In this document: one piece after another, positions 7,264 to 49,384 of the stretch | How positions within the stretch are numbered: position 1 is the stretch's first letter | How the letters are laid out: every line of letters begins with the position of its first letter | NCBI GenBank assembly: GCA_947184155.2 | Contig: CAMXCT020002004.1 | Span: 55,889-119,888, forward strand | Length of the DNA stretch: 64,000 nucleotides | Origin: Cladocopium goreaui | Taxonomy: Eukaryota > Sar > Dinophyceae > Suessiales > Symbiodiniaceae | Direction of reading: 5' to 3' | The notes under the pieces: generated by a model | Told to the model about the DNA's origin: nothing | Database searches by the model: none | What the model saw: the letters and a program-made list of their open reading frames with translations, nothing else | Translations under genes and position numbers: made by a program

Positions 7264-8442
7264 CTGCGTAGTTAGCCCAGGGGTAAGGGACTTGTTGTGT
7301 AGTTTGTTGCTGGGGCGACTTACTGTGGTCAATTCCTCCTGTGCTGCCGGAACCCCCCCCTTTTTTTACTTGAGGTGTGATTGAGTTGGCTTTGTGAGTT
7401 TGCGTTTTAGTTTTGTTGCTCTCTTTTAGTTTTCGCCTGGACCTCAGATTGAATAACTGGTTGAGAGATTGTGTAAACTTTAGATCTGCTTTTGGGATTC
7501 CTAATCACCTGATTCGCATCGAGCTCAGATCTCAAGGTTTGGTTTTCTTTGTTGCCTGGGTGTCTGTCCAAAGACGCGACAGGCACCTCAGCCAACCCTC
7601 ATTCACACCCCTTTTTGAGTACCTGCTTTTACACAGGGTTTCTGTCCTTAGACGTGACAGGCTCACTGTTTCCTTTTTCCATTCTTAATTTGAGTTCACA
7701 CAGTGTGTCTGTCCAAAGACGTGACAGGTCACTGTTCTCTTTTCTCCATCTTTACCAAGTCCCCTTTCTTTTCCGTTTTTCCGTTTCGCTCTCACACAGT
7801 GTGTCTGTCCAAAGACGTGACAGGTCACTGTCCTTTTTACTTCACTTCTTTACCAAGGCCCCTCTTCTTGCCCGTTTCTTTCGTTTTCTCTTGGCTCTTC
7901 TGTCTCCCTCCTGGTTCTTTGTTTGCGCTTTCTTTTCGCAGTGTGTCTGTCCAAAGACGTGGCAGGTACTCTGTTCCCCCTTTTGATCTTAATCGATCTC
8001 CCTGCGACCTTTTCTTCCTTTTGCTTGCACAGTGTGTCTGTCCAAAGACGTGACAGGTGCTCTGTTCCCTCCCCTTTTTACTTTGCTTGCCCCCTTTTAC
8101 TTGAAGTTTAGCTGATCTCTTCTGGTTACACAGTGTATCTGTCCAAAGACGTGACAGGTCTCTGTTACCGATACCACTTACCTTTCATTTGCATTGAGGA
8201 CACCTTCTCCCCCCCCTTTTTTTTAAATTGCTTGATTTGTGGTTAAGTTTCTGTGACTTCCTGTGCGAATCTACCTCAGCAACTCCACCTTCTCTTCTCT
8301 TTCCTTGATTGAATTCTCTCTCCCAGTTTTACGGGTTTATCTGTCCAAAGACGCGGCAGGTACTCCCCTCTCCCCTCTCTCACCTCGTAATTTGTCATAC
8401 CTCTCACACACAACCTGTTCCTTGTGAGAACTCAAAGCCATA
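7264..8442 (+). other. Pyrimidine-rich spacer (leader) before the DNMT polyprotein
   Basis: This stretch of about 1.2 kb is rich in C and T (runs such as CCCCCCCTTTTTTT near 7360 and 8214) and carries eight copies of the CTGTC/GACAG stem-loop. Reading frames across it merely spell the repeat ('CLSKDVTG', 'VSVQRRDR') in different phases and are not considered genes. The same texture, CT-rich with stem-loops, occurs at 36.9-37.1 and 40.5-41.1 kb before other ORFs, so it looks like an element leader. Confidence 0.7.
7564..8359 (+). repeat. Array of eight conserved stem-loops
   Basis: The 19-base cores start at 7564, 7642, 7709, 7805, 7947, 8038, 8139 and 8341. The consensus is CTGTC, loop CAAAGACGT, GACAG. 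The first and last have loop end GC instead of GT, the second has CTTAGACGT, and the fifth and last have GGCAG (a G-T wobble keeps the stem). In copies 3 and 4 an outer CAGTG/CACTG pairing extends the stem. Spacers vary from about 67 to 200 bases and are unrelated CT-rich sequence, so the array is not a tandem satellite. The last copy ends 83 bases before the ATG at 8443. Confidence 0.9.
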
Positions 8443-11400
8443 ATGTCCGAACACATCGAGGCTCAACAGGCTGCTGCAGAACGTCTCGGTGCACTTGGAT
8501 TGAATGCCACTCTCATGGTGCATTTTCCGAGCAAAATCAAAGCACCTGAAGGCATACTTCTGACCACCTATGATCAGCTGCATTCACAGATAGCGAAGCA
8601 GGAGACGACTGCTTATGCGTTTCCCTCTTTTGGAGCTGCTCAAAGTGCTATGAGAACACTAGCGACGATGCAACAGACTGTTATATTTATCTATGAGTGT
8701 CATGCCAACACTGGCCCAGTTGAAATTGCAGCAAAAGTCTTTGACACTTGCCATAGGCATGTTGCAGCCATTCGAGAAATTAAGCAGCTCACTGGAGCCC
8801 TCAGATATCAGAAATATCCTACTGTATTATATCTAGTCAAAATGGATAGCCTGTCAAGCAGTCCGGCGGTAATTGAATGGCAAATCTCTGACACGATAAC
8901 TGACGAGCTAATAATGCCTGCTCGTATCGCCTTTGAAAATTTTGTCGGCAAAGAACTGCGACAAGGGCAATATCCAGGAGTCAGTGAGACCAGTACATCA
9001 CCAAATGGCTGCTATAATTCTGACAAGTCAAAAGGAAGCGTGCCGCTTACTATCAAATATGAAAAGAACTCGTGCTTACAAAGAACCAAAATCCGTGAAG
9101 CAATTGAATCACTCCAGAAAGAAGTCAACGCAGCACAAGATACCCAGTTTCAGATCAAAGAAGGCATTGACTGGACTCGTTTACATAAACTACGGGAGGC
9201 TGCTACCTTCACAGTTATGTCCACTCGGCACTTAAGTGATCAAGAACGAAATGCTCTTGCGCTGGAGCTCATGTCCTTCAGAATCAAGTATTTTTTCCTC
9301 TCTAAAGCTCAAGTAATGCTGAAACTAGAAGGTATTGAAATCGAAGTGCTCCGCAACTTATTGCATTGTTCAACAACGTACTTGCCCTTTGGACAACGCC
9401 AGCAATCGACACAATTTGTTCTTAGTCAAGTGAATGCCATTGGCAGCAACTGGTACCGAATTGAAGTAAAGTATGCACCAATAGGCAGTATGCCCTTCAT
9501 ACCACTTCAAATTGCTAAAAGTAGCATTATCCCACTCCTGGAAAATGAAGTAGCAGTCATTGACTCAGAGCTCGGCTTTGCACTCATGAATGCGTTTTCA
9601 GCATCCAAATTTGAATTTCAAACAATCGTCAATGAAGACAATGTCAATGTCACGATGCTCACTTTTTGGATCCCTCATGAAGTTAAGCAGAACTTCCCAT
9701 GTTCTTTCACAGTCAAGGACAGAAGAGGAAACAGTATTGTTTGCACGATAGAGCACTGTGGAAACATACTGCCGCAAAATGGTGCACCGGGTGAACCACC
9801 CAGGCACGAGACCAAAGGAGAGCATTGGCGTAGAATTGGTGAAAAGTGTAACCCAAGCTTCAAAAATAGACTCACTGTTATCGCTCCTGTCAGCACCCAG
9901 AATGCTTCACAGAAGCGACGGTTCGGACTTCTTAAGGACTCAGCATATGACTTGCAGACTCAACAGGTATCATATACGTACTCTGAAGAGACCTACCCTT
10001 GGATTCTCTTCCTTGAATCTATACCTGTAAAAGATACACTTGACATCTTTTTGAATCATTTCAGTCATTTTGAAGCAGTGAATAGTGCGAAAGGAGATTT
10101 CTGCAAGCAAAACGTCCTCAGGTTTGAGCAAGTGTCCAAATTTACCAGAATCATGATGTTTGAAATACCGACAGGCAGGCAATGTCAAATCAATCGAGTT
10201 GATGGCCTCGAAAGCTCATTATACCTCACTAAGGTTGATGCCTTACAAATATATCCCTTCAAAGCTTGCTATCTTGTCATGCTTGTGCCTCCCCACTTCG
10301 ACTTCAGTGCCATGCTAACTGCTGATACTAAAGTTGAAGCCATTGCTGCATGGAAATTTATTACATTCGACAACAGCGGTACCAATGGGAAAACTACCGC
10401 GGTGCCCTCTACAAGCTCCACACAGCACCAGCTGCTCACGAAGGACAAACGAACTGACCAGGGTGCTAAACTGCCTAGGACCCCGCCTGTCCCCCCTAGT
10501 AGCAAGAAAGAAATTGATCAGCTTCCGGCTTACGCAGCGTTAGGCACCACTCCCCCGCCAACTCCGCCCTCCCAACAGGTCAACCCTTATCAAAACAGTC
10601 CCCCCCTCACTGATGCTGTCGCTGGGGCAAGCGACCATGACACTGCGAACCCAAATGCAGAGCGGTCAAGCAGTCAAGGTGATCTCAAAGGTGCTCAGCG
10701 CGCTGGTAAAGTTCCAGAAGGGCAATTAACACCTGGTGATGCACGCACTAACCCCCCTACTGTCAGCCCAACCATCCCATGGACCAACCTACCTGCTAGT
10801 CACCCTGCTGGCACCAGTGAGCAACCAATTACTGATATGGTTGTTGATCAAGACCTTCACGGAAATAACATACGCAAAGCAGAGGAGGAAGATAAAGAGA
10901 TGCTACCTCCCCAACCTGCACTTCTCTCCACCCCCATCAAGAAACCCCCTACATGTGAAGGAGAAGCTCTTAGCAGTCAGAAAACTAGCCTGCAAGAGCT
11001 CAAATCCACTTACGGAGATGTGAAAGGTGATTTTGCAAGCAAAAACAAACTGCCTAATGAACTTTCTGACCCTGTTATGACTCCGTCCTCCCCACCTGGT
11101 GTTTCCCCTCCCTCACAAACTGACAATGCGAAACCGGAGAGCAGTGACCCCATTGTACATACACTTCCAAGTCAATGCCAGCCTCCAGGTGCTTCCTCTA
11201 ATGCTCCTATTGGAAATGCTCCTTTACCAGAAAAACAGTCATTGTTACCTGATGACGCTGTTGTCGTAGAAATCTGTAAAGATCCCCCTGACATTGCAAC
11301 CCCCACAACGACCAAGTCGTCCCAGGCCCCTCCCTTACATCAAGGAGAAGCATTGCCCCCTATCCAGGCTGCCCTTCAACGAAGTTCTGTCCTATCGGCT

Positions 11401-14400
11401 AACGACAAAACGCACGTGTGCATTGATATCACTGGGGAAGATGACCATACTGAGCAAATTGACCTCACACGGCCATCCTTTGAACGTGAGACTCAAAGTC
11501 AGTCCCCACAACTTCGTTTTGCTTCTCTCTCTCCTTTTGCTGAATCTAGCCGAAAATGGTTCCCGACCCTTGATGCTACCGTTATTGCTGACTTAGCTAA
11601 CAAAGCCCAAGCCATTGCGATCCACTGTAGTCACATGTCTAGCATGAATACTGCATTGTACCTCCTATCAAGAGGGCCTTGGATCCCAACACATGTTAGT
11701 ATACATGTTCGACAAGCAGCCCTTGCAGCAGTAGGTGTAGGGTGGAGCTGGGTCCATCAAGTACCCACGGTTTTTCCCTTTACATGTTTTGACGCCTGCC
11801 TATCCTTAGCAACACTTCGCACCATTCCCCCCAATGACACTACACAAAATGATGCAGTGTATGAATTATATTCAATTGTATGCGCTAACCTTAGTCAGAG
11901 TACACGTAGTTTTCTTTTCTCAAGGCTTGTGTTACAATGTCAGGAGTGTTTACGGTCTAGTGCAATACCAATTGACACCTTCACTGCGACAATCAAGCCT
12001 AATACAGGTATAGATGACCTTTGTGACTCGTTAGTTCCAATTTGGAATACTGATGAATTGACAGAGTGTCAAGCTTGTTCATGTCTAGATGCTGCCAAAG
12101 CCAAGTGGAAGTGCGGTAAATTTGGCCCCTTGATCATCGTTCGAATCAAGGTACCTCCAGGATGCTCTTTTCCGAAACTCGAGGAAGAACGACTCCCACT
12201 TGGGCATAAATTTATGTTCCAAGAAAGAGAGTATGAAATCCAGTGTCTCATAGCCACCACTAGGCTTGACTTTGACAGCCAGCTCATAGTCCTGCATACT
12301 AGTCAGCCTGGAATGATAAGTATGTACGACCACAACAATGGTATACGAGTTGCGGACTACAAGCATGTCAGCGGGAAGCTCCTCATCAGTGGGCTTGTCA
12401 TACTGCCAGTCAAATCACCCAAAGCAATTCTAATGACAAAGCAACTTTCTGAAGCAGCAGGAGGTGGTGAAGTTGCGCAGTATCGTAGAAGACAATTAAA
12501 GGTTGTCAAAGGCTTTCTCAAATCGCCTCGAAAGCAGAGAAGAACACGAACCTCGCAGCTCTCTCACCCTTCTTGCAAGCACAATGCTAAAACCAAGTCG
12601 AGCAAGAAGAAGGCGAAGACGACCAGACATGGACCCCCTAAAGATGGTAAGAATGAGGATATAGTTGAAGAGATTGACCCTGAAGGATTACCTAAGATTA
12701 TCGCACACGGAACGCTGGCCAACATTGGTGTTATCTCGATGTTTGATGGAGTCGGATCTGTCTATCACATCATTAAGAAAAAACTAGGTAAACCCCCTAC
12801 TATTTTCATCGCAGCAGAAATTGATCCTGTCTTACGTCGGCTTGTTGCTGCTGAAATAGGGCTGCGAGAAGACCAACAGTGGGGATATACGATCGAAGGG
12901 GTTGCTACCATCTACGTTAAAGATGTCTGGGATTTAGTTGCCTGTGATTCTCTGATCCTTCGTCAAGCCAAGGCAATGCACCCTACAATCAAGTGGATTG
13001 TTGTTGCAGGATCTCCCTGTCAAGATCTTACTTATGCAGGTTACTTAAATGGATTGCTTGGACTGACAGGTCAGCGAAGCAGGCTCTTCTTTATAGTCTA
13101 CCTTGTTATTCGGCATCTTCAGAAGCTCTTTGGAACTGAATCGATCCGATACTTGACAGAGAATGCTGGAAGCATGCAAGTTGTACAAACTGACCGCAAA
13201 CCTAAAGGTGTGCAGCGCCTTGAGCAGTCAGAACACTTCCAAATGTTTCTATACTGTCTTGGACTTCCTAGTAAGCAACCAACCAACCGGTGGGTCTGGG
13301 ACACGAGTCCCTACTATGGCATTCAGCGAAAAAGGGTATTTCTACGGAGTCACATGGACACAGAGGAGCTTGCCAGTGTTCCACTTACATTTCTAGATGA
13401 ATGGGGCCCATTAGTGACCTTGAACGGTGAAAACTTACCATTGGCCCCATTACTCCGAACAAGAGGGCTGTCAAACAGTGGAATTCTGAAGCTCTCCTGG
13501 ACAGGCTACCAGCCCAGTGCACTTCTATGGGATTATTCCTTTTTTGGTGGGAGGAAGTCTTTCATGTTGTTAACCCAAATGGCTGAGGGAGTTAGATTCC
13601 CAAACCTGCCATGGGCAAGCTTCATCCCTGCTCACTTTCTCCCTATATGGAAAAGCTTCCTTATCACTCTTCAAACAGACAAAGCGACCACATCCAAAAA
13701 AGATGAACTCATCGAACAACTGGTGCCTATCTTTCATAATCCTAATATTGTACTGCCAATGAGAATCCTGACGGTCCAAGAAGTACGTAAATTAGCAGGA
13801 CTCGAGAATATCTTAACGACAGAAAGACATGGGCCTTCCCTTCTCACGGATAAAGTGGTTCGAGATTTTTGTGGCAATAGTTTTCATCCATCTCTCATCA
13901 GTGCGGCCCTCGGTACCGATGATCAATTACAACAGTGGGTTGATGGAAACAATGATGCGCAGCCGTACCACAAGGACCTACCGAGTATCCAAGAAGTTTA
14001 TTCTAAATACCAGGACTTGCTGAAGCTGGTTTTAGAACAAGCAGCTGCTCGAGGAGTTCAACTCAGAGATGACAAAGTGGATTTTGAAGCAAAATGGCGG
14101 CACTACTCTCTTAATGACAGCGTTGAATCAGCTTGCCCCCCAGTAGTGCACCAGCCGACAGTTTTCGCATTTTTACAAGGGTCCAACCCCCCTAAGTATC
14201 ATGGAACCCACAGTGAGGATAAACCCCCTTTTGGTGACAAAGAGTTGAGCAATATTCTGACACAATCTCGGATTGATTGGATGCTAGAGTCCTCAAACAC
14301 ATATGAAAATGTTACCCTATCAGCGCACATGCTCTATTTGGCTGTTAAAAATGGTCTTGGATTTCATTCTGAAGCTCAAGAGATTAAAGCAAAGCATATT

Positions 14401-15246
14401 GAACTGTTGAAAGAATATACTGGTGCTGAACAACTTACTGCTATCAAACAACTTTTTGTTGTCTTCCAGATTGCAACGCTCAGTGTAAAGCACCAATTTC
14501 CCTACGGTTTTGTCATTTGGGCACCAAAAATCATGCAACCTCCCCTTATCTATGTAGGGGTACAACGACCTTGCCTGCTATTCCTGTTGCTTTCTCATGA
14601 GCCTGATCAACCGTTTCGCTTTGGAACGGTCGCATTTGACTATCGACAAAGTAAAGACCTTCTCATTCATGCCAACATACCAAAGATATTTGCTGATGTG
14701 GTGCAAGTTTCTTATCACACGTTTACGACCTACCCGATACTTGCTCGAATTGATAATGGACAACACTATATACATCTTAGTGAATTTGCGGCTTTGCAGT
14801 GCCCTTTCTGTGCCTTGTGTTATTTGCACACACTCGGTGCCCCGCAGTGCTTTATGCACAACGCCTTGACCGCTAGCACTGTCATCCATTTACTCGGTGG
14901 ACTGGATGGCACAGGTGGCTTAAGTATTATAGGTGTATTAGCACGAGATGTTAGTGTTGCCAATCCACAATGGATCGCCATACATGTGGTTGACAATCAC
15001 CAAGTTCAAGATCTTGCAGATTCTAAGTCCTTTGTTGCGTACCAAGTTGCCACCCCTGTAGTATGGTCACCAATGTGGTATACGCAGTCATCGTCCATGC
15101 GACGAACGCCCAGGCAACTTGGAACTCAGCTCATGCAATCGCATACACTAGACCCATCAGGAGAATATCTTATCTTCGCAAGTACGGAGGAGTGGAGCAG
15201 GCTACTTTTCGCACTGGGAGAAGCCCCAACGGAGGGAGTAAACTGA
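8443..15246 (+). CDS. Retroelement polyprotein with DNMT3-like cytosine-5 DNA methyltransferase
   Basis: This ORF has 2267 codons starting at an ATG 83 bases after the last stem-loop. Residues about 1-640 are unrecognised and about 650-1060 are a Pro/Ser/Thr-rich linker. A Cys-pair region (CQEC near 1166, CQAC near 1209) is faintly reminiscent of ubiquitin-protease fingers but has no visible catalytic Cys. A cytosine-5 methyltransferase follows at about 1427-1820: motif I 'FDGVG', catalytic 'GSPCQDL' (Cys 1526), 'GLTGQRSRLFF', an ENV-equivalent 'ENAG' (Glu 1573), 'QRKRVF' (Gln 1628) and motif X 'CGNSFHP'. The spacing and the 'G-TG-RLFF' block resemble DNMT3, a de novo enzyme that transfers methyl from SAM to cytosine. 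Residues 1830-2267 are unknown. The ORF ends at TGA, but the same frame stays open into the endonuclease ORF. Similar retrotransposon methylases are known from dinoflagellates. Confidence 0.85.
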   Translation: MSEHIEAQQAAAERLGALGLNATLMVHFPSKIKAPEGILLTTYDQLHSQIAKQETTAYAFPSFGAAQSAMRTLATMQQTVIFIYECHANTGPVEIAAKVFDTCHRHVAAIREIKQLTGALRYQKYPTVLYLVKMDSLSSSPAVIEWQISDTITDELIMPARIAFENFVGKELRQGQYPGVSETSTSPNGCYNSDKSKGSVPLTIKYEKNSCLQRTKIREAIESLQKEVNAAQDTQFQIKEGIDWTRLHKLREAATFTVMSTRHLSDQERNALALELMSFRIKYFFLSKAQVMLKLEGIEIEVLRNLLHCSTTYLPFGQRQQSTQFVLSQVNAIGSNWYRIEVKYAPIGSMPFIPLQIAKSSIIPLLENEVAVIDSELGFALMNAFSASKFEFQTIVNEDNVNVTMLTFWIPHEVKQNFPCSFTVKDRRGNSIVCTIEHCGNILPQNGAPGEPPRHETKGEHWRRIGEKCNPSFKNRLTVIAPVSTQNASQKRRFGLLKDSAYDLQTQQVSYTYSEETYPWILFLESIPVKDTLDIFLNHFSHFEAVNSAKGDFCKQNVLRFEQVSKFTRIMMFEIPTGRQCQINRVDGLESSLYLTKVDALQIYPFKACYLVMLVPPHFDFSAMLTADTKVEAIAAWKFITFDNSGTNGKTTAVPSTSSTQHQLLTKDKRTDQGAKLPRTPPVPPSSKKEIDQLPAYAALGTTPPPTPPSQQVNPYQNSPPLTDAVAGASDHDTANPNAERSSSQGDLKGAQRAGKVPEGQLTPGDARTNPPTVSPTIPWTNLPASHPAGTSEQPITDMVVDQDLHGNNIRKAEEEDKEMLPPQPALLSTPIKKPPTCEGEALSSQKTSLQELKSTYGDVKGDFASKNKLPNELSDPVMTPSSPPGVSPPSQTDNAKPESSDPIVHTLPSQCQPPGASSNAPIGNAPLPEKQSLLPDDAVVVEICKDPPDIATPTTTKSSQAPPLHQGEALPPIQAALQRSSVLSANDKTHVCIDITGEDDHTEQIDLTRPSFERETQSQSPQLRFASLSPFAESSRKWFPTLDATVIADLANKAQAIAIHCSHMSSMNTALYLLSRGPWIPTHVSIHVRQAALAAVGVGWSWVHQVPTVFPFTCFDACLSLATLRTIPPNDTTQNDAVYELYSIVCANLSQSTRSFLFSRLVLQCQECLRSSAIPIDTFTATIKPNTGIDDLCDSLVPIWNTDELTECQACSCLDAAKAKWKCGKFGPLIIVRIKVPPGCSFPKLEEERLPLGHKFMFQEREYEIQCLIATTRLDFDSQLIVLHTSQPGMISMYDHNNGIRVADYKHVSGKLLISGLVILPVKSPKAILMTKQLSEAAGGGEVAQYRRRQLKVVKGFLKSPRKQRRTRTSQLSHPSCKHNAKTKSSKKKAKTTRHGPPKDGKNEDIVEEIDPEGLPKIIAHGTLANIGVISMFDGVGSVYHIIKKKLGKPPTIFIAAEIDPVLRRLVAAEIGLREDQQWGYTIEGVATIYVKDVWDLVACDSLILRQAKAMHPTIKWIVVAGSPCQDLTYAGYLNGLLGLTGQRSRLFFIVYLVIRHLQKLFGTESIRYLTENAGSMQVVQTDRKPKGVQRLEQSEHFQMFLYCLGLPSKQPTNRWVWDTSPYYGIQRKRVFLRSHMDTEELASVPLTFLDEWGPLVTLNGENLPLAPLLRTRGLSNSGILKLSWTGYQPSALLWDYSFFGGRKSFMLLTQMAEGVRFPNLPWASFIPAHFLPIWKSFLITLQTDKATTSKKDELIEQLVPIFHNPNIVLPMRILTVQEVRKLAGLENILTTERHGPSLLTDKVVRDFCGNSFHPSLISAALGTDDQLQQWVDGNNDAQPYHKDLPSIQEVYSKYQDLLKLVLEQAAARGVQLRDDKVDFEAKWRHYSLNDSVESACPPVVHQPTVFAFLQGSNPPKYHGTHSEDKPPFGDKELSNILTQSRIDWMLESSNTYENVTLSAHMLYLAVKNGLGFHSEAQEIKAKHIELLKEYTGAEQLTAIKQLFVVFQIATLSVKHQFPYGFVIWAPKIMQPPLIYVGVQRPCLLFLLLSHEPDQPFRFGTVAFDYRQSKDLLIHANIPKIFADVVQVSYHTFTTYPILARIDNGQHYIHLSEFAALQCPFCALCYLHTLGAPQCFMHNALTASTVIHLLGGLDGTGGLSIIGVLARDVSVANPQWIAIHVVDNHQVQDLADSKSFVAYQVATPVVWSPMWYTQSSSMRRTPRQLGTQLMQSHTLDPSGEYLIFASTEEWSRLLFALGEAPTEGVN
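15244..15246 (+). promoter_or_regulatory. In-frame TGA between methylase and endonuclease ORFs
   Basis: The codons run AAC TGA TTT CTA TTA CTC GGA ATG in one frame, and the frame then stays open to 16650. The TGA is either a readthrough stop separating two polyprotein parts or a CGA to TGA mutation, the expected change at a methylated CpG. Nothing in the sequence alone decides between these. Confidence 0.5.
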
Positions 15247-26668: not shown

Positions 26669-26691
26669 CCCTAGTCGGCGTGTGTTGACAT

Positions 26692-31110: not shown

Positions 31111-31122
31111 CAACCCGGCGGT

Positions 31123-34467: not shown

Positions 34468-34497
34468 AGGTTTCAATCACATCAACCTCAACTAAAG

Positions 34498-35400: not shown

Positions 35401-35450
35401 CCCACCCTTACCCACCCTGGTTTGGGTGTGGTGAGGGTGCATTCTGCGCT

Positions 35451-36866: not shown

Positions 36867-36867
36867 C

Positions 36868-36898
36868 ACTCCTCTGACTAAAGACGTGTCAGGGGAGT
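36868..36898 (+). repeat. Conserved stem-loop with extended 11-bp stem
   Basis: The core is CTGAC, loop TAAAGACGT, GTCAG (36874-36892). The stem extends outward to ACTCCTCTGAC (36868-36878) paired with GTCAGGGGAGT (36888-36898), including one T-G wobble. A CT-rich leader follows, then the ATG at 37121. Confidence 0.9.
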
Positions 36899-37120
36899 AC
36901 CCTTTCCCTCATTTACTTTCCCTCCCCTTTTTGCTCTCTTCTTCCTCCCCTCCCCCTGGTTGTCTCCTCTCGTTACCTTCGCTGTTATCCGTGATTGGTG
37001 GCACCTCGGGTGTACTCACTGGTCGATACCTATCAGTCATCTGGGCCTGCTTCCTCTCTTCTTCCTATCTGCTCTCCATTCCTACCTCTGCCATACTTTT
37101 GTGTACTCCGGTGGACAGTC

Positions 37121-40084: not shown

Positions 40085-41171
40085 TTGTGTGCCCTAGATG
40101 AACCTTTTCCCAGTGAGAGGCTGGCACCAGGTCAAGGCTGTATTCCGGCCTATTTGAGATCCGAGAGGAAAATGAACGGGCAGCGCACACACAGTCGCAT
40201 CTCTCAGTTGAACCATGATGTCCTTAAATAGGCAAGTTTTGTGTGCTCAGCTACATTGCTACCGCTTCCGGCGTCTCTTTGGCTCAAATGCAAAGCAGCA
40301 GACAGACCAGCTGTCTCAGCATAGTTCCAGAAAAGGGAAATATAGAGCACCTCGGGGAGGGATTCATATCACTAACCTTTCCGATTCTCAGACAAGGGAT
40401 CTGCTACAGACTTGTTTTGTCACACCACAGTTTATTTCCTGATTTTTCGTGCATTAGGATCTAATTTCGCGATAGTGCCCCTTGCTACGTTACATTCCTT
40501 ACCTGACTCATCGTTCTCCGTCCCATTTGGCATCTGGTTTCTCTGGCCAAAGACGTGCCAGGGCTACCAGTGCTTCTTCCACCACCCTTCTCCCCCCTCT
40601 GATTGGTTTGTGTGTGGTTTCTTCCTTGTCTGCTCTTTGGTTCGGAGTGCCTTGCTCCCTCCCTTTCTCTCTTGCCTTTCTTCTTGTTCACTCTTGTGCC
40701 TGGATTTTCTGACTAAAGACTGTCAGGGCTTCCAGCTTTTATTTATCCCTTTCCTTCCCCCCTGATTGCACCTTTTTCCTCACTGCTGCGTGCGCCGCCT
40801 GATTCGACTGCCGTGTATTAATTTGTGGGTTCGGGCTTTCTTGTTTATCCTACTTCGTGTCAAGGTGCTTGAACTGCCTGGCCAAAGACGTGCCAGGTTT
40901 TTCAACACTCGACCCTTCCCCCCTTCTCTGTTGTTTTGTGTGGTTTGGTTCGGTGTCCGTTGTCTTTTTCTGTGTGTGGGTCTCCGTTTGTTTGCTTTTC
41001 TGTGTTGGTGGTCTTGCTGTGTGTCCTCCTACTCATCTTTGTGTTTGCCATTCAATACTGATTGAAGTGCTTGAGTCTTCTGACCAAAGACGTGTCAGGA
41101 TTCTCAACACCTCCCCCCCACCCCACTTTACCTCTACACCCTGAACAGCTACGCAGGAACTGCACAGTGCG
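40085..41171 (+). other. CT-rich leader with four stem-loops
   Basis: This is the same texture as at 7.3-8.4 kb: pyrimidine-rich sequence with stem-loops and only shadow reading frames. The four stem-loops are listed together in a separate entry. Confidence 0.65.
40543..41098 (+). repeat. Four conserved stem-loops with three different stems
   Basis: CTGGC-CAAAGACGT-GCCAG (40543-40561); CTGAC-TAAAGACT-GTCAG (40709-40726); CCTGGC-CAAAGACGT-GCCAGG (40877-40897); CTGAC-CAAAGACGT-GTCAG (41080-41098). Within one leader the stems differ but each pairs with itself, while the loop stays YAAAGAC(G)T. The last ends 73 bases before the ATG at 41172. Confidence 0.9.
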
Positions 41172-43064
41172 ATGTCTCTGCTTTCCAGAGAACAAGTTGT
41201 GAAATCCGGGTATGCAAAGAACCCTAACGTCAGCTTCTTTGATTTGCTCTTTGCGCTTGAACAGCATAAGAGCATTTCGACTGAGTATGGGCTGAATGTA
41301 TCCATTGAGCAGCACTGGAGGCTTGGAGACCCCCATAAGAAGACCGCTGCACCAGATCGACATGACTATGAAATTGCAATGGTAGGTGGGAGAGAAACCT
41401 TACCTGGGCCTGACTGGCATAAGTTGTACCGATGGTTGGTTAGTCAAAGCCCTGCTTTCTTGCCTTACCACACGGTATATTTGGTGACGGACAATCGGGA
41501 TTTGCAATCGGATAAGGTCAAGTCTGAGCCTGGACTCAGTCATTGGCCAATGGTCGCTGCTTGGTGGAAAGAACGGTTACGCTATGTCGGTCCATATGGA
41601 GAACTCACCACGGTTGTCTTTGTCCACATTTCAGCTGACACTGGTCTCCATAAGGTACACCCGACATGGGCAGGGACGTACATCCTTGATGCGTGTGTGT
41701 TCCTCTTCCCGGCCATCAACTTTGCATTGATTGACAGCGATTGTGTGCCAGTGACTCTCTTCGAGATACGGGAACTTTGGCTGGCGAGCACTGACCCAAC
41801 CCATGCAGCTGCATCAAGCACAGTTGTCAAGAGCAAACTGTCAAGCCCCATTGCGTCATCGCACAAACGTGCGCGATCTGTGGACACGGGAAGGGACATG
41901 CAGCAGCCTGGTCCACCTTCAAAGCTGTCTAGATCGCATAGCGCGGACCATCTTGCTGTCCGAAAAGCAGACCCACTGCGAGCCCCTCCGTTCACCTACG
42001 GTGCCAATTTGGCAGACGAAGTAGACTATGGTGATTCGCCAGACCCGAGTCCCCGAATGTCTCGTCGAGTGACGTCCAGCAGCGATGACTCTTCCCCGGC
42101 TGGGTCAGCTAAACCCACTCGGAAGGACAAAGCAGCCGTAGATGAAACTGCCACTGCGCCTATGCCCAAAGGAGTCATCCTTGTGAGTGAGGCTTTCACT
42201 GAAATCAATGCTGGTCTGGTCATTGTAATGGCTTCGGGTCATGAGAGTCCTGTACCTGTTACTGTCTTGGAGGACCCAGACACAGATCCTGACGAAATTG
42301 CCCGGGTTGTTACCATTGCTTACCACAGACATGTCGAAGCCTACCTAGCTACTACATATCCACCTGCAGATGTCGAGAGAGCAGTCGCTAGTGGATTACT
42401 TGGCTCTCCTCTGCTTGGCACGGCCACACGTGTTACTGCAGATTGGTGCCATGCGTGGAGCTTGCTAGGCCAGTGGTCTGGACTAGTTACGTTTCCTGTC
42501 CCAGCCTCTGGAGTCTGGCCGCGCCATGGTCATTTACGGAAGATCCTTGATGGCTACCAAGGCAGGCAACCAAACTTCCATAAATGGGCTAGGCCCGCCT
42601 ATGAGCAAGGGGCCCTTCCGACCCTTAGCCTGCTGCCCGGTGAGGTCAGTGTACGAGCGCTACCAGGAGACAAGATGTACCAAGCCATGGCAATCGAGCC
42701 ACAGTACATGCGGCCTGTTATCCTTCATGGATTTGGCACCAGTGCCAAGAAAAGAATGCCGAACAGTCTCGCTGACCTCGCCCAATTTGGCTGGTTGCCG
42801 CTGGCTGCTGCTTTATTTGGCACGAATGAATGGAAGCCCCAATGGCTACATCACAATTTCCTTCCAGTGGTTGGACTGCGGCTGCATGCCAAAGTGCCAC
42901 CTCCCCCTCTCTCCCAAGCCCAATTGATCTTGCTGTGTGAATTGTGGCAACGAAAGGAACAATCGGAACCCTCATGTACATCGCTTCAGCAAGCAGCTCT
43001 CCTGAAGTTTGGTCTTCCGTTACCTTTCCGAGAAATGGCTAAAATGGGAAATCACTGTCAATAA
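41172..43064 (+). CDS. Glycosyltransferase-like N-terminal part of the helicase polyprotein, element 2
   Basis: The ATG at 41172 begins 630 codons. Residues about 70-205 contain 'YLVTDNRDL', 'GTYILDACVFLFP' and 'FALIDSDCVPVTLFEIREL'. The Asp-Ser-Asp (188-190) followed by 'CVPVTLFE' looks like the metal-binding D-x-D of a GT-A glycosyltransferase, but I cannot confirm the fold. A Ser/Lys/Pro-rich linker (about 205-330) precedes a second unrecognised domain (about 335-610). The ORF stops where the next frame takes over (43009), and the chain then leads through two more frame changes to the helicase. The whole is best read as one ancestral ORF from 41172 to 47693. Confidence 0.6.
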   Translation: MSLLSREQVVKSGYAKNPNVSFFDLLFALEQHKSISTEYGLNVSIEQHWRLGDPHKKTAAPDRHDYEIAMVGGRETLPGPDWHKLYRWLVSQSPAFLPYHTVYLVTDNRDLQSDKVKSEPGLSHWPMVAAWWKERLRYVGPYGELTTVVFVHISADTGLHKVHPTWAGTYILDACVFLFPAINFALIDSDCVPVTLFEIRELWLASTDPTHAAASSTVVKSKLSSPIASSHKRARSVDTGRDMQQPGPPSKLSRSHSADHLAVRKADPLRAPPFTYGANLADEVDYGDSPDPSPRMSRRVTSSSDDSSPAGSAKPTRKDKAAVDETATAPMPKGVILVSEAFTEINAGLVIVMASGHESPVPVTVLEDPDTDPDEIARVVTIAYHRHVEAYLATTYPPADVERAVASGLLGSPLLGTATRVTADWCHAWSLLGQWSGLVTFPVPASGVWPRHGHLRKILDGYQGRQPNFHKWARPAYEQGALPTLSLLPGEVSVRALPGDKMYQAMAIEPQYMRPVILHGFGTSAKKRMPNSLADLAQFGWLPLAAALFGTNEWKPQWLHHNFLPVVGLRLHAKVPPPPLSQAQLILLCELWQRKEQSEPSCTSLQQAALLKFGLPLPFREMAKMGNHCQ

Positions 43065-43281
43065 GCAGCCTATAGATGTTGGAGAACTGTCCAAACAACG
43101 CTACATAGGAAGACAACCCGAAGCTGAGATGCCTGCTACACTCAAGGACTCGGTTGACTGGGCATCCTGGGTCTTTTCCCTTGCAGAAGTCTGGCAAGAT
43201 GACGCCCCGATGCAAGACCGACCCCTTGAAGTGCATTGCAGTGGATTAGGAGGTGGCCTGCTTAGTAGCGAACACATATGA
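43009..43281 (+). pseudogene. Continuation fragment of the element 2 helicase polyprotein
   Basis: About 90 codons in the +1 frame relative to the preceding ORF, without a proper start (TTG). The residues ('YLSEKWLKWEITVNKQPIDVGELSKQRYIG') look like ordinary protein. It overlaps the ORF before it by 56 bases and the ORF after it by 29, as expected from single-base changes in one long ORF. Confidence 0.5.
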
Positions 43282-43738
43282 TATTTTCCTGCAAAATCTT
43301 GCGCAAACAAAGGTGTATGGCCCATCGCTTGCGATGACAGACAATTGGGAAGAACATATCACCCAATTGGGCCTTACCAAAACAGTGCACGAATATGCTG
43401 TGTACCAGCTCCTTTCCACTGCTGATGGATGGACAGCTTGGCGTGATTTCCTCCCTGAACAGTTGTCTGATCCACAGCTGCTGCTCACGAGAGCGATCCG
43501 CCTCATTGAGGCCGCGAGCATCCGGCCAGCCCACTCCAGGCCACCACATCCGACCTGGTCAACCGCGATTATGCAGATCTTCCGTTGTTACCATCCACAA
43601 GGGAAACAGCTTTTTCTGAAGTCATGTTTTCCACACTTGGTCACTACAGGGGACAACAGAGTGAGCAGGGACATTAACGTGTATGGTTTCTCGGCAGGGT
43701 CCCTATACGGGCTTAGCAGTCCACGAGATCCTGAGTGA
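43253..43738 (+). pseudogene. Second continuation fragment of the element 2 helicase polyprotein
   Basis: About 160 codons, again one frame further (+1). The sequence around 'DNWEEHITQLGLTKTVHEYAVYQLL' looks coding. It overlaps the helicase ORF that begins at 43683. No homologous stretch remains in element 1, where this part is replaced by gag debris. Confidence 0.5.
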
Positions 43739-46700
43739 ATTTGCTGCGTTCCCTGGCCTCACTAAAGTTGCTGCGATTGCGACGCCGCCAGAGATGCTGC
43801 GACTTGCCACAGGCGAACGCAGAGTCACACTGGTGCATTGCCTGGAAGACCGGCTATGTGTGTGGAGACCTGCTTCTCTGACAGAATTTAACTATCAGGT
43901 TGTTCTTATAGAAGGGCACCCCACCTGGAGTGGGCGTGCCAAACATTCCTATGGCCACTTGCTCTTCATTGACCTTGACGAAGGAGTCCACGAAATCCAG
44001 AGACTACAAATCACCACCCCACAAGTTATTCCACATGGGGTACGGTGCGAGGGATTGCTGCGTGTACTCTCATGGGTTAGCTTTGACCTTCCTGAGCACC
44101 TTAAGACGACTCTAAGTGATTTGTTAGTAGCAGCAGGAGAAGGGAACATGGAGCTACAGAATATACCCATCGGTGGACGGGACATACGGGATGGTCAGCC
44201 TGAAACGGAAGCTGACCTACAAGCAGCTCTGATTGCGATGATCCCCACACCGGGAGGCTCCCACGATGAGGGTGGGTTGCTGGTTCGCAACCTACTGGCG
44301 GAATTCCTGCGTGGTTTCTCATTACGAACCCTCATCTTCCTACTGGACATGGTTCTTCCGCAACTAGACGCTTACCATGTGGGACGGCAGCTCCAGCATC
44401 TCCAGCCCTGGGTCAGTGTGGAACTTGCTCAGCAGAAGAAGCGAGGACAAACAGGAACACGCTTGCAGCTCACCTACCAATACGAGGCTTATGCTGGGTT
44501 TCATGTCGTTCACCTACATACTGATGGTGCCCCGCTTCTGCTGTTCAGTGCACCGTCGGATGTTCCAATGACCTCGCCGCGAGAACTCTGCGAGGCTGGG
44601 AATCTAGGCAACTTAGAAGCCAATGTGATGGCGGGCAGAGCATTACTGGGTGTCCTCCAGTTGCCAGATACGCAGCATCGGTGTGTCATATTACTTGTAC
44701 ATGACAAGGTGATGTCTAGCGGAACCAGTAAGAACCCTGCCCAACGAGCTATCAAGCGCATTGCCCCGAAGTTGCTGGAGGTTGTTATCGTCTCGCTACC
44801 CATTGCTCGGACCTTTTGTGGGCGGCTCTTGGACCAATATCTCAAAACAATGAGTTACTTTGATCCTGCAAAGGACTGGCCGAAACCCATCGAAGACTAT
44901 GCGTCCATGACCGTTGTATGGGAGGAGCTAGCTTTTCTGGGAGACACACGCAGCCGCCATGAACTCTTAGTGTTTGCGCAGGCTAACCAGTCGCGCTTAC
45001 CACTGGCAATGGGCATCGTGCAACCGCATATACCTGTTCGCCGCATGGCCAGCGAGCGCAAAACGCAGCTGACGGACGCATTAGTCAGAATATTGACACG
45101 GTTTTTGACACCAGCCACAATATCAATGGATGGGGCCCATGACAGTTACTACTGTGAATATCTCCTTCCTTTAGCAGCCCACGGTGATGGACATGTCTTG
45201 ACAGTTTCCATTGCATTGTTACTGGCCATTCTGACAGGAAGATCTGACTTATGTATTGCCGGGGTTTTTGGTGCTGGCAAAACGCGGTCCCTTGCGGTCT
45301 TGCTCATTGCCCTGAGTTGCGAACTCAAGGAATTTGTTGCCATCATCTATACGAAAGAAAATGTAGCTGCCAAAGCAATTGCGGATCAATTGAGTGATCT
45401 CGCGCCCCCCACAATCAAGAGCTTTGGTAGGCTCATTGGACGCATGGAGGAAGGCAAAGGTGAAGCATATGCCTCCAAGATTGACGTTCGATGCAGTGAT
45501 CGCAATAGAATCATCGCTCACAAGAATGTCCTCATTGCAACAGGTGGCTCGGCCACGGCGGAAATGGCGATGCGTTACTCCAGCTTTGGTCATTGGATCT
45601 CTCGCACCTGGCTTGCCTTCATGGATGAAAGTCAACAGTATGGCAACTACCATGAAATTGCAGCTCTCGCTGCTATTCAACAACCAACCCTGACTGTTTT
45701 CATTGGTGATCATAGGCAAACCCCAGGCGGATTGTCAAAAGGCCGAGCAGCTGCTGTCAATCGTCGCAAACGGTTGCAACGGCCGTTAGGGCTCCGAGCA
45801 CTTGATAAGTCCGGAGACTATCTTCCGCCGGCACGAATGACAGCACTTATAGCGCAGCTTTGGCCTGATGCGAGCCAAGATCCGGAGTCTGACCTCTTCA
45901 GTTTGCTGCGCCTTGCAAATAAGTCGCATAGTGGCCCATGGACATCCACTCCGCAAGACTACGAGCTGCCTGCTGCCCTGGGGCGTGTGCTTCACGGCCG
46001 AATCTCTTGCCAGCTGGATGCACACAGCAGCCTGGTTGCGGCAGCTCTAGCAGTCCTGCTGATTGCCACAGCACCCGAGGAATTTGGAGTACCTGAGTGC
46101 ACCACAACCCTTGAGGCTGCAGGGTTATGTGGTCCTCACCGGTGGGGTATCATTCTCCCTAACAGCTCACGGGTCTCAATGCTGACTTACCAAGCTATTG
46201 TTGCAGTTCGATATCCTGAGTTAGTCCTCCACGAGCCCAATCACATCTACATTGGACACTTCGTGCCACATGAGTCCACTGTGGCACAAGGAGGCTTCCG
46301 GACAGTACTGTGGAAGGCACCTAAAGATCTGAGAGCTGCAGTCGAGGACGTCGTTGCTTTCTGCACTTATCTGAAGAACTATTATCGCAACTTGCAACAG
46401 GGAGCGACCTCGCAGCTGCTTGTCCTATGCAATCGTACGGCGGTGCACAACTTGCTGCTCCAACATGGTTTCCAGTCCGCGTGGTACGGTGGGCTTAGAG
46501 TCTCCACCACTTCCTCTGCCGCGGGAGCAACAGCACGCATTGCGGTCATTGTTCAAACAGGCGTTGGGTTTCTAAGTGGAGGACGTCGGGATGCAACAGC
46601 AGATGAGCGCGAAGACTGCTATGGGAGAGCAACTGTAGCGCTCACAAGAGCCATTGAACATACCTATATTGTTTCGCCTCTTGATATGGCAGGCATGATT

Positions 46701-47693
46701 GGCATGGCTCAGACACTAGGAGTGTACCATTATGGCTACTTCACACTGAAAGGCCGCGACATTCAGTACCATGGTCCTTCAAAATACCCCAGTGACAAAA
46801 GTGCCATACTGGACTGGGGATTAGTGGACCCATTTATTTCCCAAGATGAACCTCCCCTTGCTATTGCCATGATAGTGACCACCAATGGCACGCGAGTGTG
46901 GCGACGATATCGGTTGGTTGTGGCATGCAGAGACAAGCTACGGCTACCCCCTGATGTCCTTGCAGCATTAGAGTCCCGCACACGTGATCACGTGCTGACG
47001 ACCAGCGGGTTTTTCCCCTGCTCGATTGATCGGGAATACTTGTATGGTTATGCTGCTGATGGGTATAGATCGCCTCTCTGGATCTGTGCAGCCTATAATG
47101 GGTCCCCAGCACTTGTTCATCGACATCGAGGCCACAAGGTCTTTTTTCACGTGGGTATACAGGATCGGCAGCTTGTCGTAATACCGGGTATCCACTACTT
47201 CGATGCCCATCGGTTGCAACCGGACCTCTTGAACACATTGGATCGCCGGATTGATCCTGGGTCCATGAATTTTGCAAGCCCCGAGGGTGCAGGAGACACT
47301 GTTAATGACCCCTCCTCGGATGAGGAAGCGGCCTCTACCGATGACGAGAGTGACCCAGAGGACCCTACAGTTGCGTGGTGTCCACCTATACCTGATGCAG
47401 CTGAAGATCCTTCTGAAGATGAGATCGCGAGTGCAGCCGATAAGCTAGCTATCCTGATCACTAATGTCCAACCTAACGGAAACCCTTTTTGCATGCCTGA
47501 AAACCTTGGAGTTCTCCCACAGTTATGGCTACAGGCGAGATTGACGTTGTCATTGACTACCATCCAAGAAAAGTTTTCGCGCATCTTGCTGAGGGAGGGG
47601 AGCAGAGAGCGGGGGGGGGAGACTCGGAGATGGATGAAGAGGGAAAAGAGCGGGGAGGCAGCGAAGCCGACAAATAGGAGGAGGACAAAATGA
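43683..47693 (+). CDS. SF1 (Upf1/DNA2-like) helicase of element 2
   Basis: 1336 codons; similarity to the element 1 helicase starts at about residue 14 ('HEILSEF...AAIATPP...EDRLCVW'), so the first residues are probably an out-of-frame artefact. Walker A is 'GVFGAGKTRS' (Lys 533), Walker B is 'AFMDESQQYG' (Asp 648, Glu 649), motif III-like is 'GDHRQTPGG', and motif VI-like is 'ATVALTRAIEHTYIVSP' (near residue 985). All SF1 motifs are present, so this copy looks more intact than element 1. About 300 extra C-terminal residues have no known domain and end in an acidic stretch. The last 45 codons (from about 47560) run through purine-rich sequence that looks like inverted leader DNA, so the natural C-terminus is probably lost. 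Confidence 0.82.
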   Translation: MVSRQGPYTGLAVHEILSEFAAFPGLTKVAAIATPPEMLRLATGERRVTLVHCLEDRLCVWRPASLTEFNYQVVLIEGHPTWSGRAKHSYGHLLFIDLDEGVHEIQRLQITTPQVIPHGVRCEGLLRVLSWVSFDLPEHLKTTLSDLLVAAGEGNMELQNIPIGGRDIRDGQPETEADLQAALIAMIPTPGGSHDEGGLLVRNLLAEFLRGFSLRTLIFLLDMVLPQLDAYHVGRQLQHLQPWVSVELAQQKKRGQTGTRLQLTYQYEAYAGFHVVHLHTDGAPLLLFSAPSDVPMTSPRELCEAGNLGNLEANVMAGRALLGVLQLPDTQHRCVILLVHDKVMSSGTSKNPAQRAIKRIAPKLLEVVIVSLPIARTFCGRLLDQYLKTMSYFDPAKDWPKPIEDYASMTVVWEELAFLGDTRSRHELLVFAQANQSRLPLAMGIVQPHIPVRRMASERKTQLTDALVRILTRFLTPATISMDGAHDSYYCEYLLPLAAHGDGHVLTVSIALLLAILTGRSDLCIAGVFGAGKTRSLAVLLIALSCELKEFVAIIYTKENVAAKAIADQLSDLAPPTIKSFGRLIGRMEEGKGEAYASKIDVRCSDRNRIIAHKNVLIATGGSATAEMAMRYSSFGHWISRTWLAFMDESQQYGNYHEIAALAAIQQPTLTVFIGDHRQTPGGLSKGRAAAVNRRKRLQRPLGLRALDKSGDYLPPARMTALIAQLWPDASQDPESDLFSLLRLANKSHSGPWTSTPQDYELPAALGRVLHGRISCQLDAHSSLVAAALAVLLIATAPEEFGVPECTTTLEAAGLCGPHRWGIILPNSSRVSMLTYQAIVAVRYPELVLHEPNHIYIGHFVPHESTVAQGGFRTVLWKAPKDLRAAVEDVVAFCTYLKNYYRNLQQGATSQLLVLCNRTAVHNLLLQHGFQSAWYGGLRVSTTSSAAGATARIAVIVQTGVGFLSGGRRDATADEREDCYGRATVALTRAIEHTYIVSPLDMAGMIGMAQTLGVYHYGYFTLKGRDIQYHGPSKYPSDKSAILDWGLVDPFISQDEPPLAIAMIVTTNGTRVWRRYRLVVACRDKLRLPPDVLAALESRTRDHVLTTSGFFPCSIDREYLYGYAADGYRSPLWICAAYNGSPALVHRHRGHKVFFHVGIQDRQLVVIPGIHYFDAHRLQPDLLNTLDRRIDPGSMNFASPEGAGDTVNDPSSDEEAASTDDESDPEDPTVAWCPPIPDAAEDPSEDEIASAADKLAILITNVQPNGNPFCMPENLGVLPQLWLQARLTLSLTTIQEKFSRILLREGSRERGGETRRWMKREKSGEAAKPTNRRRTK

Positions 47694-47862
47694 AGAGAGG
47701 AGGAGAGTACAGAAACGACGGGGCGAAAGGGAAGAAGGAAGGGGGCAAGGTGGGGAGGAAACTGTCGCACAAAGAAAGGAGGAAAAGGATGGGATAAGGG
47801 GACAAAAAAAGGAGATCGAGGGGCGGGTAGAAAGACGAGAAAAAGGAAAAAAAAACGGAAGA
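47560..47862 (-). other. Purine-rich tract, probably inverted leader sequence
   Basis: About 300 bases are almost only A and G on the plus strand, therefore pyrimidine-rich on the minus strand, like the leaders at 7.3-8.4 and 40.5-41.1 kb. It overlaps the end of the helicase ORF. I interpret it as an inverted fragment of a leader. No stem-loop core is found in it. Confidence 0.45.
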
Positions 47863-47942
47863 AAAGTGCCACAATGATAGAGGATGTGTGTGGCCTGTGA
47901 ACTGTGGTTGCGTGGACAAAGTGCCACAATGATAGAGGATGT
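47863..47942. repeat. Tandem duplication with a 25-base unit
   Basis: The sequence AAAGTGCCACAATGATAGAG plus GATGT occurs at 47863-47887 and 47918-47942, 55 bases apart, separated by 30 unrelated bases. Confidence 0.8.
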
Positions 47943-49044
47943 CCTCCTGCAGACGGCAAGGGCTCTCACAATTCGTTTGGCAGAAAAGCTCGCCCAAGCG
48001 ATGAGCTCGTTGATGAGATTGGCTGAATGCATGGTGACTCCAGAAACCGAGTGCTTGCTGTATGCCACGTACTGGTTTCGGCCCATCCTGTCTGAGCTCA
48101 TTGGCTCGGCCCTTGAGAGCTCTGAGGTGAACCGGAGTCGCGCGCCGAGTGGCCCAGTAAAAGTCCTGGTCACTGATCGGCCGCATCGACGAACTACTGG
48201 GCTAGTGGACCTTACGAGTGGTGCCTCTGCCCTATTGGCATGGTTCCCGGCTAGCTGGGCTAGCAAAATTGCTCCCAAACTTCTTGAGAATGCCCCTGAG
48301 AATGCGCAGAAACCACAAGAAATCAACATCGCATGCCCGAAACGTTCCTGTGACGAGACTCCGGTGGAAGGAGCAAAACAGCTGCTCCAAGCAGTCAAAT
48401 TTGCTGCCAAAACCATGCCTGGTTTTCGTCTTGGACTGGATGAAGACTTTCAAATGGCTGGATGCTTCCAGGAGCTCATCCATGGATACACATCAGGGCT
48501 CGTTGAACCATCCATGATGCGAGGTCTCCAACCACTGGGACCGACTCGTACTACTCTGGAAGTGATCGTACCTTCTCAAGAAGGGCTTACACCTGAAAAA
48601 TGGAAAGAAACAGCCACACTGTGCCCACTTGATTGGCCTTCCAACTTCAGTCTGTTGCTATTGTGGCATACCAATGGGAGCCTGCATCAAACGGTAGCGC
48701 GACTCAGGAATCAACTGTCGCACAGCCATATGTTTGCTGAATGGACAGTGCATATCAACAGATTTGCGGAGCGTTTTTGATTCCAGCAACCTGCAGTTTA
48801 TGTAGCTGGACATGCCTTGCAAGCCAACTTGCGGGAACGAACCTTCCCAGACAGGAGAGTCCGCAAGAGGGTTCCTCCGGAAGATCTGGATGAACATCAA
48901 CGGGCGATTCGAGCGCTACATCAGCGAGCTATTGCTCAGCAAGCAGCTAACCCAGTTTCGTTTGCACTCACCAATGAATGGAACGACACTATCACATCGG
49001 ACAAGAAGCATCACTTGGAACATTTCATGAGAGGTACGACATGA
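47884..49044 (+). pseudogene. Unrecognised element ORF interrupted by an in-frame TGA
   Basis: The frame is open from 47884 to TGA 48778-48780 (298 codons) and continues in the same phase to 49044 ('FQQPAVYVAGHALQANLRERTF...NEWNDTITSDKKHHLEH'), giving about 386 codons in all. The true start is uncertain; ATG 47932 lies in the duplicated unit and ATG 48001 follows. The middle ('SNFSLLLLWHTNGSLHQTVARLRNQL') has good protein composition, but I recognise no domain. It stands where element 1 has its DNMT polyprotein, yet shows no similarity to it. TTT TGA TTC would be TTT CGA TTC before a CpG-type mutation. Confidence 0.5.
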
Positions 49045-49248
49045 TCCCCCCAACACCATCTCCCATCTTTTCCCTATTTGTGTCCACCTTGTCTCTTCTT
49101 TCCCCCGTGTCTCTTTTCTGTTTCACTCCGCTTTGTCTTTCACACAACATTGGTTTTTGTTTCATCAGCAACGGAAGTGGGAGTTTATTTCAATCACTAT
49201 TGGGTCTTTCGTCATTTCTACTTCAGGTTACTGTCCATACTGGTGTGT

Positions 49249-49384
49249 CTGTCCAAAGACGTGACAGGTGCATTGGTATGCAGTCGGGGACACAGCTCTT
49301 CCTCATTTATAATTGTCAGGTTCCGCATGACCCATGCCTGGGAGGCTACTTCCACACTGGTGTGTCTGTCCAAAGACGTGACAG
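49249..49384 (+). repeat. Two conserved stem-loops in a 117-base duplication
   Basis: CTGTC-CAAAGACGT-GACAG at 49249-49267 and 49366-49384. The surrounding sequence (ACTGGTGTGT before; GGTGC, then GGTATGCAGT after) is also repeated, so here stem-loop and flanks were duplicated together. Confidence 0.88.

Follow-up and report, generated by a model that had tools for sequence, protein, structure and literature searches.

A covarying RNA hairpin heads the ATG-free leaders of a giant spliced-leader LINE in the dinoflagellate Cladocopium goreaui

What is the role of a short RNA hairpin that recurs, with hardly any change in its loop, in front of one open reading frame (ORF) after another? This question is raised by a 64-kb stretch of the Cladocopium goreaui genome (assembly GCA_947184155.2, contig CAMXCT020002004.1, positions 55,889 to 119,888), hereafter the window, in which a first-pass annotation made from the sequence alone had described such stem-loops before a series of retroelement ORFs. 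Our analysis reveals that the hairpin is a conserved, covarying RNA structure and that, within the window, it is confined to one giant non-LTR element, a long interspersed nuclear element (LINE) with a spliced-leader relic at its 5' end, where it heads the ATG-free leaders of seven translation units.

A pattern search recovered the 18 claimed core sites on the plus strand within 7564..49384, each with all five stem pairs. The loop is the 9-nt YAAAGACG(T/C) in 16 of the 18 sites and the 8-nt TAAAGACT in the other two (38916 and 40709), and all the stems listed in the annotation, including the wobble forms CTGTC/GGCAG and CTGGC/GTCAG, are present. As for the two additional loop variants that had been announced, one was accepted, at 7642, with the changed loop CTTAGACGT (2 mismatches), the stem CTGTC/GACAG and a position within the 5' array, and the second was not identified; the search allowing 2 mismatches, from which 7642 came, also yields many chance matches on both strands. 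The accepted set thus consists of 19 hairpins, the 18 core sites plus 7642. A strict search (YAAAGAC loop of 8 or 9 nt, five pairs) gave 19 sites on the plus strand, namely the 18 core sites and one at 39251, compared to a mean of 0.115 and a maximum of 2 sites in 200 dinucleotide shuffles. We rejected 39251 as a chance match, since its stem is unrelated, it lies inside ORF9 (ankyrin) and the covariance model missed it. The loop string YAAAGACG(T/C) occurs 18 times on the plus strand (16 with five pairs, 2 with one pair) and never on the minus strand, where looser loops (7-11 nt, shifted) gave a single five-pair chance match. A covariance model built from the 19 sites and run with filters off scored them at 43-61 bits and nothing else on either strand of the 64 kb above 9.9 bits; as the model was trained on these sites, it is this gap, and not their own scores, that is informative. 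The annotation knew of no described motif that fits, and we likewise obtained no Rfam match at the gathering threshold in the 64 kb; with matches up to E 10 admitted for 40500-41170, the lone match reached 13.9 bits, where the threshold is 100, with an E-value of 5.9.

The structure turned out to be larger than the five-pair stem-loop originally described, which holds for the upper stem and understates the whole, because lower stems pair too. When the flanks were folded, many of the 19 sites showed two extra pairs under the 5-bp stem, then a 2x2 pyrimidine internal loop and a further stem of about 5 bp; often a third stem follows beyond a single bulged base in the 5' strand. This extended lower structure is not seen in the fold of 7642, and the lower stems differ somewhat at the sites near 7.6-8.3 kb, 22 kb, 36.9 kb and 49 kb. 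Upstream flanks paired with their own downstream flanks with a score of 12.9, compared to 9.3 (standard deviation 0.66) for re-dealt flanks, and none of 20000 permutations reached 12.9. For the resulting 15-pair structure, 80.7% of the cells were paired in the 19 window sites, compared to 63.8% in shuffled and 34-45% in slid alignments, and the covariation measure was 0.496 versus 0.189 and 0.10-0.15, respectively. Since tandem hairpin copies are related to each other, a second set of 40 further sites, 36 of them distinct, was drawn from the first 100 core matches listed for the genome. The pattern used to find them fixed part of the upper stem and left the fourth pair and all lower pairs free. 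In the 36 distinct sites, many of which are copies of the same sites and do not count as independent events, 93.9% of the cells were paired (66.3% shuffled, 30-48% slid) and covariation amounted to 0.748 (0.229 shuffled, 0.08-0.21 slid). The covariation that the annotation had read from the stems is hence borne out in both sets, and it stays above background in the 40 of 2,969 genome sites that were sampled.

These 2,969 are the exact matches to the core in the 1.17-Gb genome assembly from which the window comes; the reversed control pattern matched once. On 20 genome stretches outside its training set, which had been selected through the core pattern, the covariance model matched all 20 at 40.4-61.1 bits. 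In 20 loci fetched for their copies of the 5' array, the strand of the array carries 141 loop matches, 133 of which have five of five pairs, and the last hairpin of the array stands 102-117 nt before ORF1 in all 20 fetched copies. Differences between these copies are unevenly distributed over the 5' untranslated region (UTR): they affect 48 of 2780 aligned positions in the cores (1.7%), 300 of 4066 in the flanks and 1642 of 15501 in the spacers (10.6%), so that the hairpin core changes six times slower than the spacers. The number of hairpins per 5' array varies from 2 to 8 among the copies (L148-L167). Core-pattern matches were also seen in viral contigs (21 stretches, one match per stretch) and in prokaryote genomes (at least 118 stretches, one each); both were set aside, the prokaryote number being by a rough estimate not above chance.

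All 19 hairpins fall within one non-LTR element at 7186-51754, which spans 44.6 kb in the window and approximately 34.3 kb without a nested insertion. Its 5' border is given by the similarity of other copies to the window, which starts at 7182-7193 in 19 of 20 loci (L162 starts at 8074), and a relic of the dinoflagellate spliced leader (DinoSL) lies there (7186..7205, plus strand; copy junctions and relic scoring). The leader is described in part of PMC2606063 as DCCGUAGCCAUUUUGGCUCAAG. The relic is found in 20 of the 21 copies examined, i.e. in the window and 19 of the 20 loci, L162 having no 5' end; it scores 13.5-19, and the best of 2000 random 47-mers scores 13. By reading of the junctions, tandem DinoSL relics are present at the element's 5' end in L150, L154, L156 and L165, which is what successive cycles of trans-splicing and reinsertion would produce. 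The 3' border is at 51754: of 1601 candidate places, 40 were scored, and similarity to the window stops at 51751-51754 in 19 of them and begins only at 51753/51754 in 20, the remaining one being the window itself. All five copies inspected end in, or one base past, an A run. Self comparison of the window revealed no repeat common to both ends of the element, i.e. no long terminal repeats, and the longest word common to the two junction regions, compared with regard to a target-site duplication, is 6 nt and lies away from the junctions. Taken together, the copy ends show that the RNA of the element begins with the spliced leader and terminates in poly(A).

The element contains an ORF for a putative EEP-like endonuclease and a reverse transcriptase (RT) plus nine others, and seven of the ten are headed by hairpins. 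What the annotation had called successive retroelement ORFs do not come from a run of separate retroelements; they are the cistrons of a single LINE, about 34 kb in length, and the RT ORF at 51784 and the helicase-like ORF at 4057 lie outside it. Several retroelements as hosts of the hairpins are ruled out, as copies are collinear across the junction between the RT and the small ORFs and one is collinear end to end: three of five fetched stretches from the RT to ORF4 follow the window over approximately 3 kb (the other two are interrupted), and copy C4998 (88573-123455) matches it from end to end at 97.8-98.9%, with 80% in the first part of the 5' UTR. The C4998 copy carries a separate insertion of about 1 kb, and its ORF1 and ORF2 are each split into several frames. 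By the strict pattern, it carries 16 hairpins in the same order; the counterpart of 24884 has a changed loop.

The hairpins, all on the plus strand, are grouped as follows, with cores found by pattern search and covariance model unless stated otherwise. Eight precede ORF1, with cores at 7564 (7547..7600; 46.6 bits), 7642 (7624..7678; the variant loop, from the mismatch search, 48.5 bits), 7709 (7691..7745), 7805 (7787..7841), 7947 (7929..7983), 8038 (8020..8074), 8139 (8121..8175) and 8341 (8323..8377; listed from the covariance model), the last core starting 102 nt before ORF1. ORF4, ORF5, ORF6, ORF8 and ORF9 have one each, at 22447 (22429..22483), 23401 (23383..23437), 24884 (24866..24920), 36874 (36856..36910) and 38916 (38898..38951), respectively, the last with an 8-nt loop. 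Four precede ORF10, at 40543 (40525..40579; 61 bits), 40709 (40691..40744; 8-nt loop), 40878 (40860..40914) and 41080 (41062..41116), and two lie in the 3' UTR, at 49249 (49231..49285) and 49366 (49348..49402). As the annotation had it, the hairpins stand in spacers: all 19 are outside the 20 ORFs that we took as genes, and some overlap short frames of the mechanical ORF list, e.g. 7549-7986 and 48978-49403. The distances to the ATGs at 8443, 22601, 23454, 25019, 38966 and 41172 are 83, 135, 34, 116, 31 and 73 nt, in agreement with the claimed ones. That the hairpins precede ORFs is right for seven ORFs and wrong for the 3' UTR pair, after which none was found; hits scattered without relation to ORFs were not seen in the window, in 20 copies of the 5' end or in one further long copy.

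The spacers differ in their ATG content on the two sides of the hairpin. From the first hairpin to the ATG of the ORF, the six inner spacers contain 1 ATG in 1268 nt, compared to 13.7 expected, and upstream of the hairpin the same spacers contain 50 in 2857 nt, where 43.9 would be expected; the p-value is 1.7e-7 when based on length and 1.6e-5 after correction for composition. The single exceptional ATG, at 24949, is missing in all six other copies of that leader. The 5' UTR of ORF1 has no ATG in 1257 nt (15 expected), and only 2 were counted in total across 20 copies. In the inner tracts and 5' UTR together, ATG is the most depleted of the 64 trinucleotides (1 versus 28.7), the next being TAT at 0.25 of expectation. 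The spacers lacking a hairpin contain 3 ATGs in 234 nt (ORF2-ORF3) and 6 in 243 nt (ORF6-ORF7). This pattern implies that in single-hairpin leaders the hairpin marks the start of the ATG-free leader.

With slightly better than even confidence, we propose that the hairpin is a conserved leader element of a giant multicistronic LINE and acts in translation, at the place where ribosomes begin. A hairpin, either single or in arrays (here of 4 and 8), stands at or near the head of the ATG-free leader of ORF1, ORF4-ORF6 and ORF8-ORF10, an arrangement seen in the window copy and, for ORF1, in 20 further copies as well. Ribosomes would start scanning at or upstream of the hairpin and thus arrive at the AUG of the ORF. 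Either the long RNA recruits them internally, or there are separate mRNAs, made by trans-splicing, in which the hairpin lies close to the 5' end; we consider the two routes about equally likely. Among the roles that the annotation had suggested, initiation is the one best supported, by the ATG-free tract that starts at or before the hairpin; roles in RNA processing, reverse transcription or packaging may exist. A more far-reaching version is possible, although we regard it as doubtful: the hairpin would represent a hitherto undescribed class of short, structured RNA elements, and the LINE a true multicistronic genome of about 34 kb on one spliced-leader-capped RNA, with seven main translation units that each have their own hairpin-headed initiation leader and arrays of 8 and 4 before the two largest units.

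Several observations weigh against a role of the hairpin in initiation or against its structural basis. The ATG-free tract extends upstream of the first hairpin by 378 nt for ORF1 (to the 5' end of the element) and by 255 nt for ORF10, which suits an RNA 5' end above the hairpin better than entry at the hairpin. No ORF was found after the 3' UTR hairpins at 49249 and 49366, the approximately 2.4 kb that follow them show no codon periodicity in three comparisons (one with a near-identical copy, of little weight), and this 3' region has no depletion of ATG (52 versus 39.6 expected); not every hairpin, then, heads an ORF. Conversely, ORF3 (126 aa) and ORF7 (131 aa) have no hairpin. The ATG counts of the inner spacers come from a single copy, supplemented in six others by part of one leader. 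With regard to the structure, two of the five measures of covariation are unremarkable: pairs changed on both sides number 11 in each set, a value reached by 58 of 500 shuffles for the window and 401 of 500 for the further sites, and the observed value for further pair types is reached in 142 of 500 shuffles for the further sites.

The strongest rival of initiation at the hairpin is a signal for RNA processing, in which the hairpin marks or gates a trans-splicing acceptor just upstream, polycistronic RNA being resolved into spliced-leader mRNAs and the genomic RNA staying whole. Trans-splicing occurs at the 5' end of the element RNA, and the tract from the last upstream ATG to the first hairpin contains AG sites, several of which follow pyrimidine-rich stretches; AG sites, however, are frequent by chance. 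The part of PMC11453091 that treats the matter reports that some tandem dinoflagellate genes are co-transcribed and resolved through trans-splicing, but also that polycistronic expression is rare in dinoflagellates. A genome-wide search for the leader joined to a guessed ORF9 acceptor gave 7 matches, all with 2 mismatches and of one variant that is not the leader, so that none is real, and none of 247 hairpin matches in the fetched loci (duplicates counted, inner ones mostly with 60 nt upstream) has GGCTCAAG within 150 nt upstream. We rate a processing signal as rather unlikely.

Somewhat less probable still is a binding site for a protein of the element or an export factor, serving RNA export, packaging or cis-preference and placed in spacers as these are free of coding constraint. 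It would fit the tandem arrays and the pair in the 3' UTR, and the loop AAAGAC resembles the AAGACA by which the retroviral constitutive transport element (CTE) recruits Tap-p15, according to an excerpt of PMC4330393. The CTE motif described there, however, sits in the internal loop of a 2-fold symmetric stem and not in an apical loop as here, which makes this a resemblance only, and a binding site predicts neither an ATG-free tract from the hairpin onward nor nearness to the downstream ORF. Finally, a palindrome acting at the DNA level, e.g. in protein binding or recombination, would agree with inverted repeats in one orientation throughout the element, but a double-stranded site predicts neither stem letters that vary with pairing kept nor wobble pairs, which occur in the upper stem (CTGTC/GGCAG, CTGGC/GTCAG) and as a lower U-G in 30 of 36 further sites, and we consider it very improbable.

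The cistrons themselves, all on the plus strand, show partly recognizable products. ORF1 (8443..15246, 2267 aa) has no Pfam match; in its first 500 codons the ratio of nonsynonymous to synonymous differences per site (pN/pS) is 0.09-0.27 in 20 copies. ORF2 (15262..21329) starts 15 nt past the ORF1 stop with no hairpin before it, and is broken into two overlapping frames in the window copy; its RT is recognized by RVT_1 (38.6 bits with a cut-off of 29.6, E 1.2e-9), and the putative EEP-like endonuclease gave an Exo_endo_phos match below the cut-off (E 0.0075). The RT end has a pN/pS of 0.14-0.16 in four diverged copies and 0.35 in a near-identical one; together with ORF1, this shows that the copies mostly acquired their differences under selection. 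ORF3 (21564..21944) is weakly constrained (pN/pS 0.40-0.97, 6 copies). The following small ORFs from the ORF list are ORF4 (22601..22984, 127 aa), ORF5 (23454..24263, 269 aa), ORF6 (25019..25765, 248 aa) and ORF7 (26009..26404). ORF8 (37121..38284, 387 aa counted from the first ATG) shares 26% identity with ORF5 over 241 positions, and ORF9 (38966..40084, 372 aa) encodes ankyrin repeats by Pfam. ORF10 (41172..48780) is split into 630, 1336 and 298 aa in the window, whereas in C4998 a single open frame of about 2525 aa spans it, so that the helicase and 298-aa parts need no hairpin each. Its middle part is weakly similar to SF1 helicases (AAA_19 and Viral_helicase1, both below cut-off); a scan of IMG/VR with this part gave 3 stretches, none a relative, and a PDB sequence search gave no match for it and one for ORF1 at E 0.75. 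The 630-aa part has 66 homologues among 7,999 candidates scored, in clusters of up to 58 members, and Pfam found nothing convincing in a 25-member alignment of it. The predicted fold of this part (41172-43061; mean predicted local distance difference test score 50.7) gave 133 fold matches up to E 10 and none at or below 0.001; the top ones were nucleotide-sugar enzymes, non-significant with E above 1. The 3' UTR (48781..51754), delimited by copy ends and the comparison of codon periodicity, ends in a short A run.

The nested insertion at 26510..36741 does not belong to the element: the C4998 copy lacks it, with a gap at the same site, and its borders share the word CAGAG. Self comparison of the window revealed repeats inside it (26692-27180 equals 34912-35400 at 99.8%, and 34498-34912 equals 35451-35865 at 100%), its four longest plus-strand ORFs (27237, 28551, 29860 and 31123) have no Pfam match, and a short form of approximately 1.1 kb is present in other copies (L165, L219). 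On the left of the element, the helicase-like ORF at 4057-7263 is 27% identical to the helicase part of ORF10; this similarity ends at nucleotide 7185, where the element begins, and the ORF thus seems to have been cut by the element's insertion. On the right, a different LINE (51754-57039) adjoins the 3' end. The RT of this neighbour shares 35% identity with that of ORF2; its relatives, many of which carry PF03372, fall into protein clusters as large as 801 members, and an IMG/VR scan with it gave no match. A distant EukProt hit to this flanking RT, named symbB (P0103), points to a dinoflagellate host, as does the spliced leader. The right flank (58188-61373) contains diverged repeats (58188-58875/60328-61057 at 70% and 58650-58894/61129-61373 at 83%).

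A high-copy LINE of about 34 kb with a common, putatively initiation-type hairpin at its cistrons raises the question how eukaryotic ribosomes read many ORFs on one RNA, and the 2,969 exact core matches constitute a large natural set of variants for probing the role of the hairpin. The spliced leader at the copy ends indicates that a full-length retroelement, besides host retrogenes, was retrotransposed from spliced-leader RNA. A search of the open-access literature returned no giant multicistronic dinoflagellate LINE and no such hairpin, which does not establish their absence from print.

Typical LINEs are under about 10 kb and are usually viewed as elements of one or two ORFs, for which a hairpin per cistron is unusual. 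The element shares with APE-type LINEs an RT, with a putative EEP-like endonuclease in front of it, a poly(A) 3' end and the apparent lack of terminal repeats, but differs from them in its length of about 34 kb, its approximately ten ORFs, among them an ankyrin ORF and a weakly helicase-like one of about 2525 aa, and the hairpin at most cistrons. Terminons, giant Penelope-like elements of rotifers, are likewise very large with extra ORFs, but belong to another RT class. Viral and cellular internal ribosome entry sites resemble the leaders in placing structured RNA upstream of an internal cistron, whereas here the structure is a short hairpin in many copies and with no Rfam match, for which internal entry is a proposal only. 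The retroviral CTE is similarly a stem-loop with an AAGAC-type sequence in unspliced retroelement RNA; in contrast to its description in part of PMC4330393, the loop YAAAGAC(G)T is apical in a single hairpin that is not 2-fold symmetric. Finally, DinoSL-tagged dinoflagellate retrogenes, as portrayed in parts of PMC12014239 and PMC6050394, carry the same kind of spliced-leader relic at their 5' end, but here the relic stands at the 5' end of a giant LINE that itself encodes an RT.

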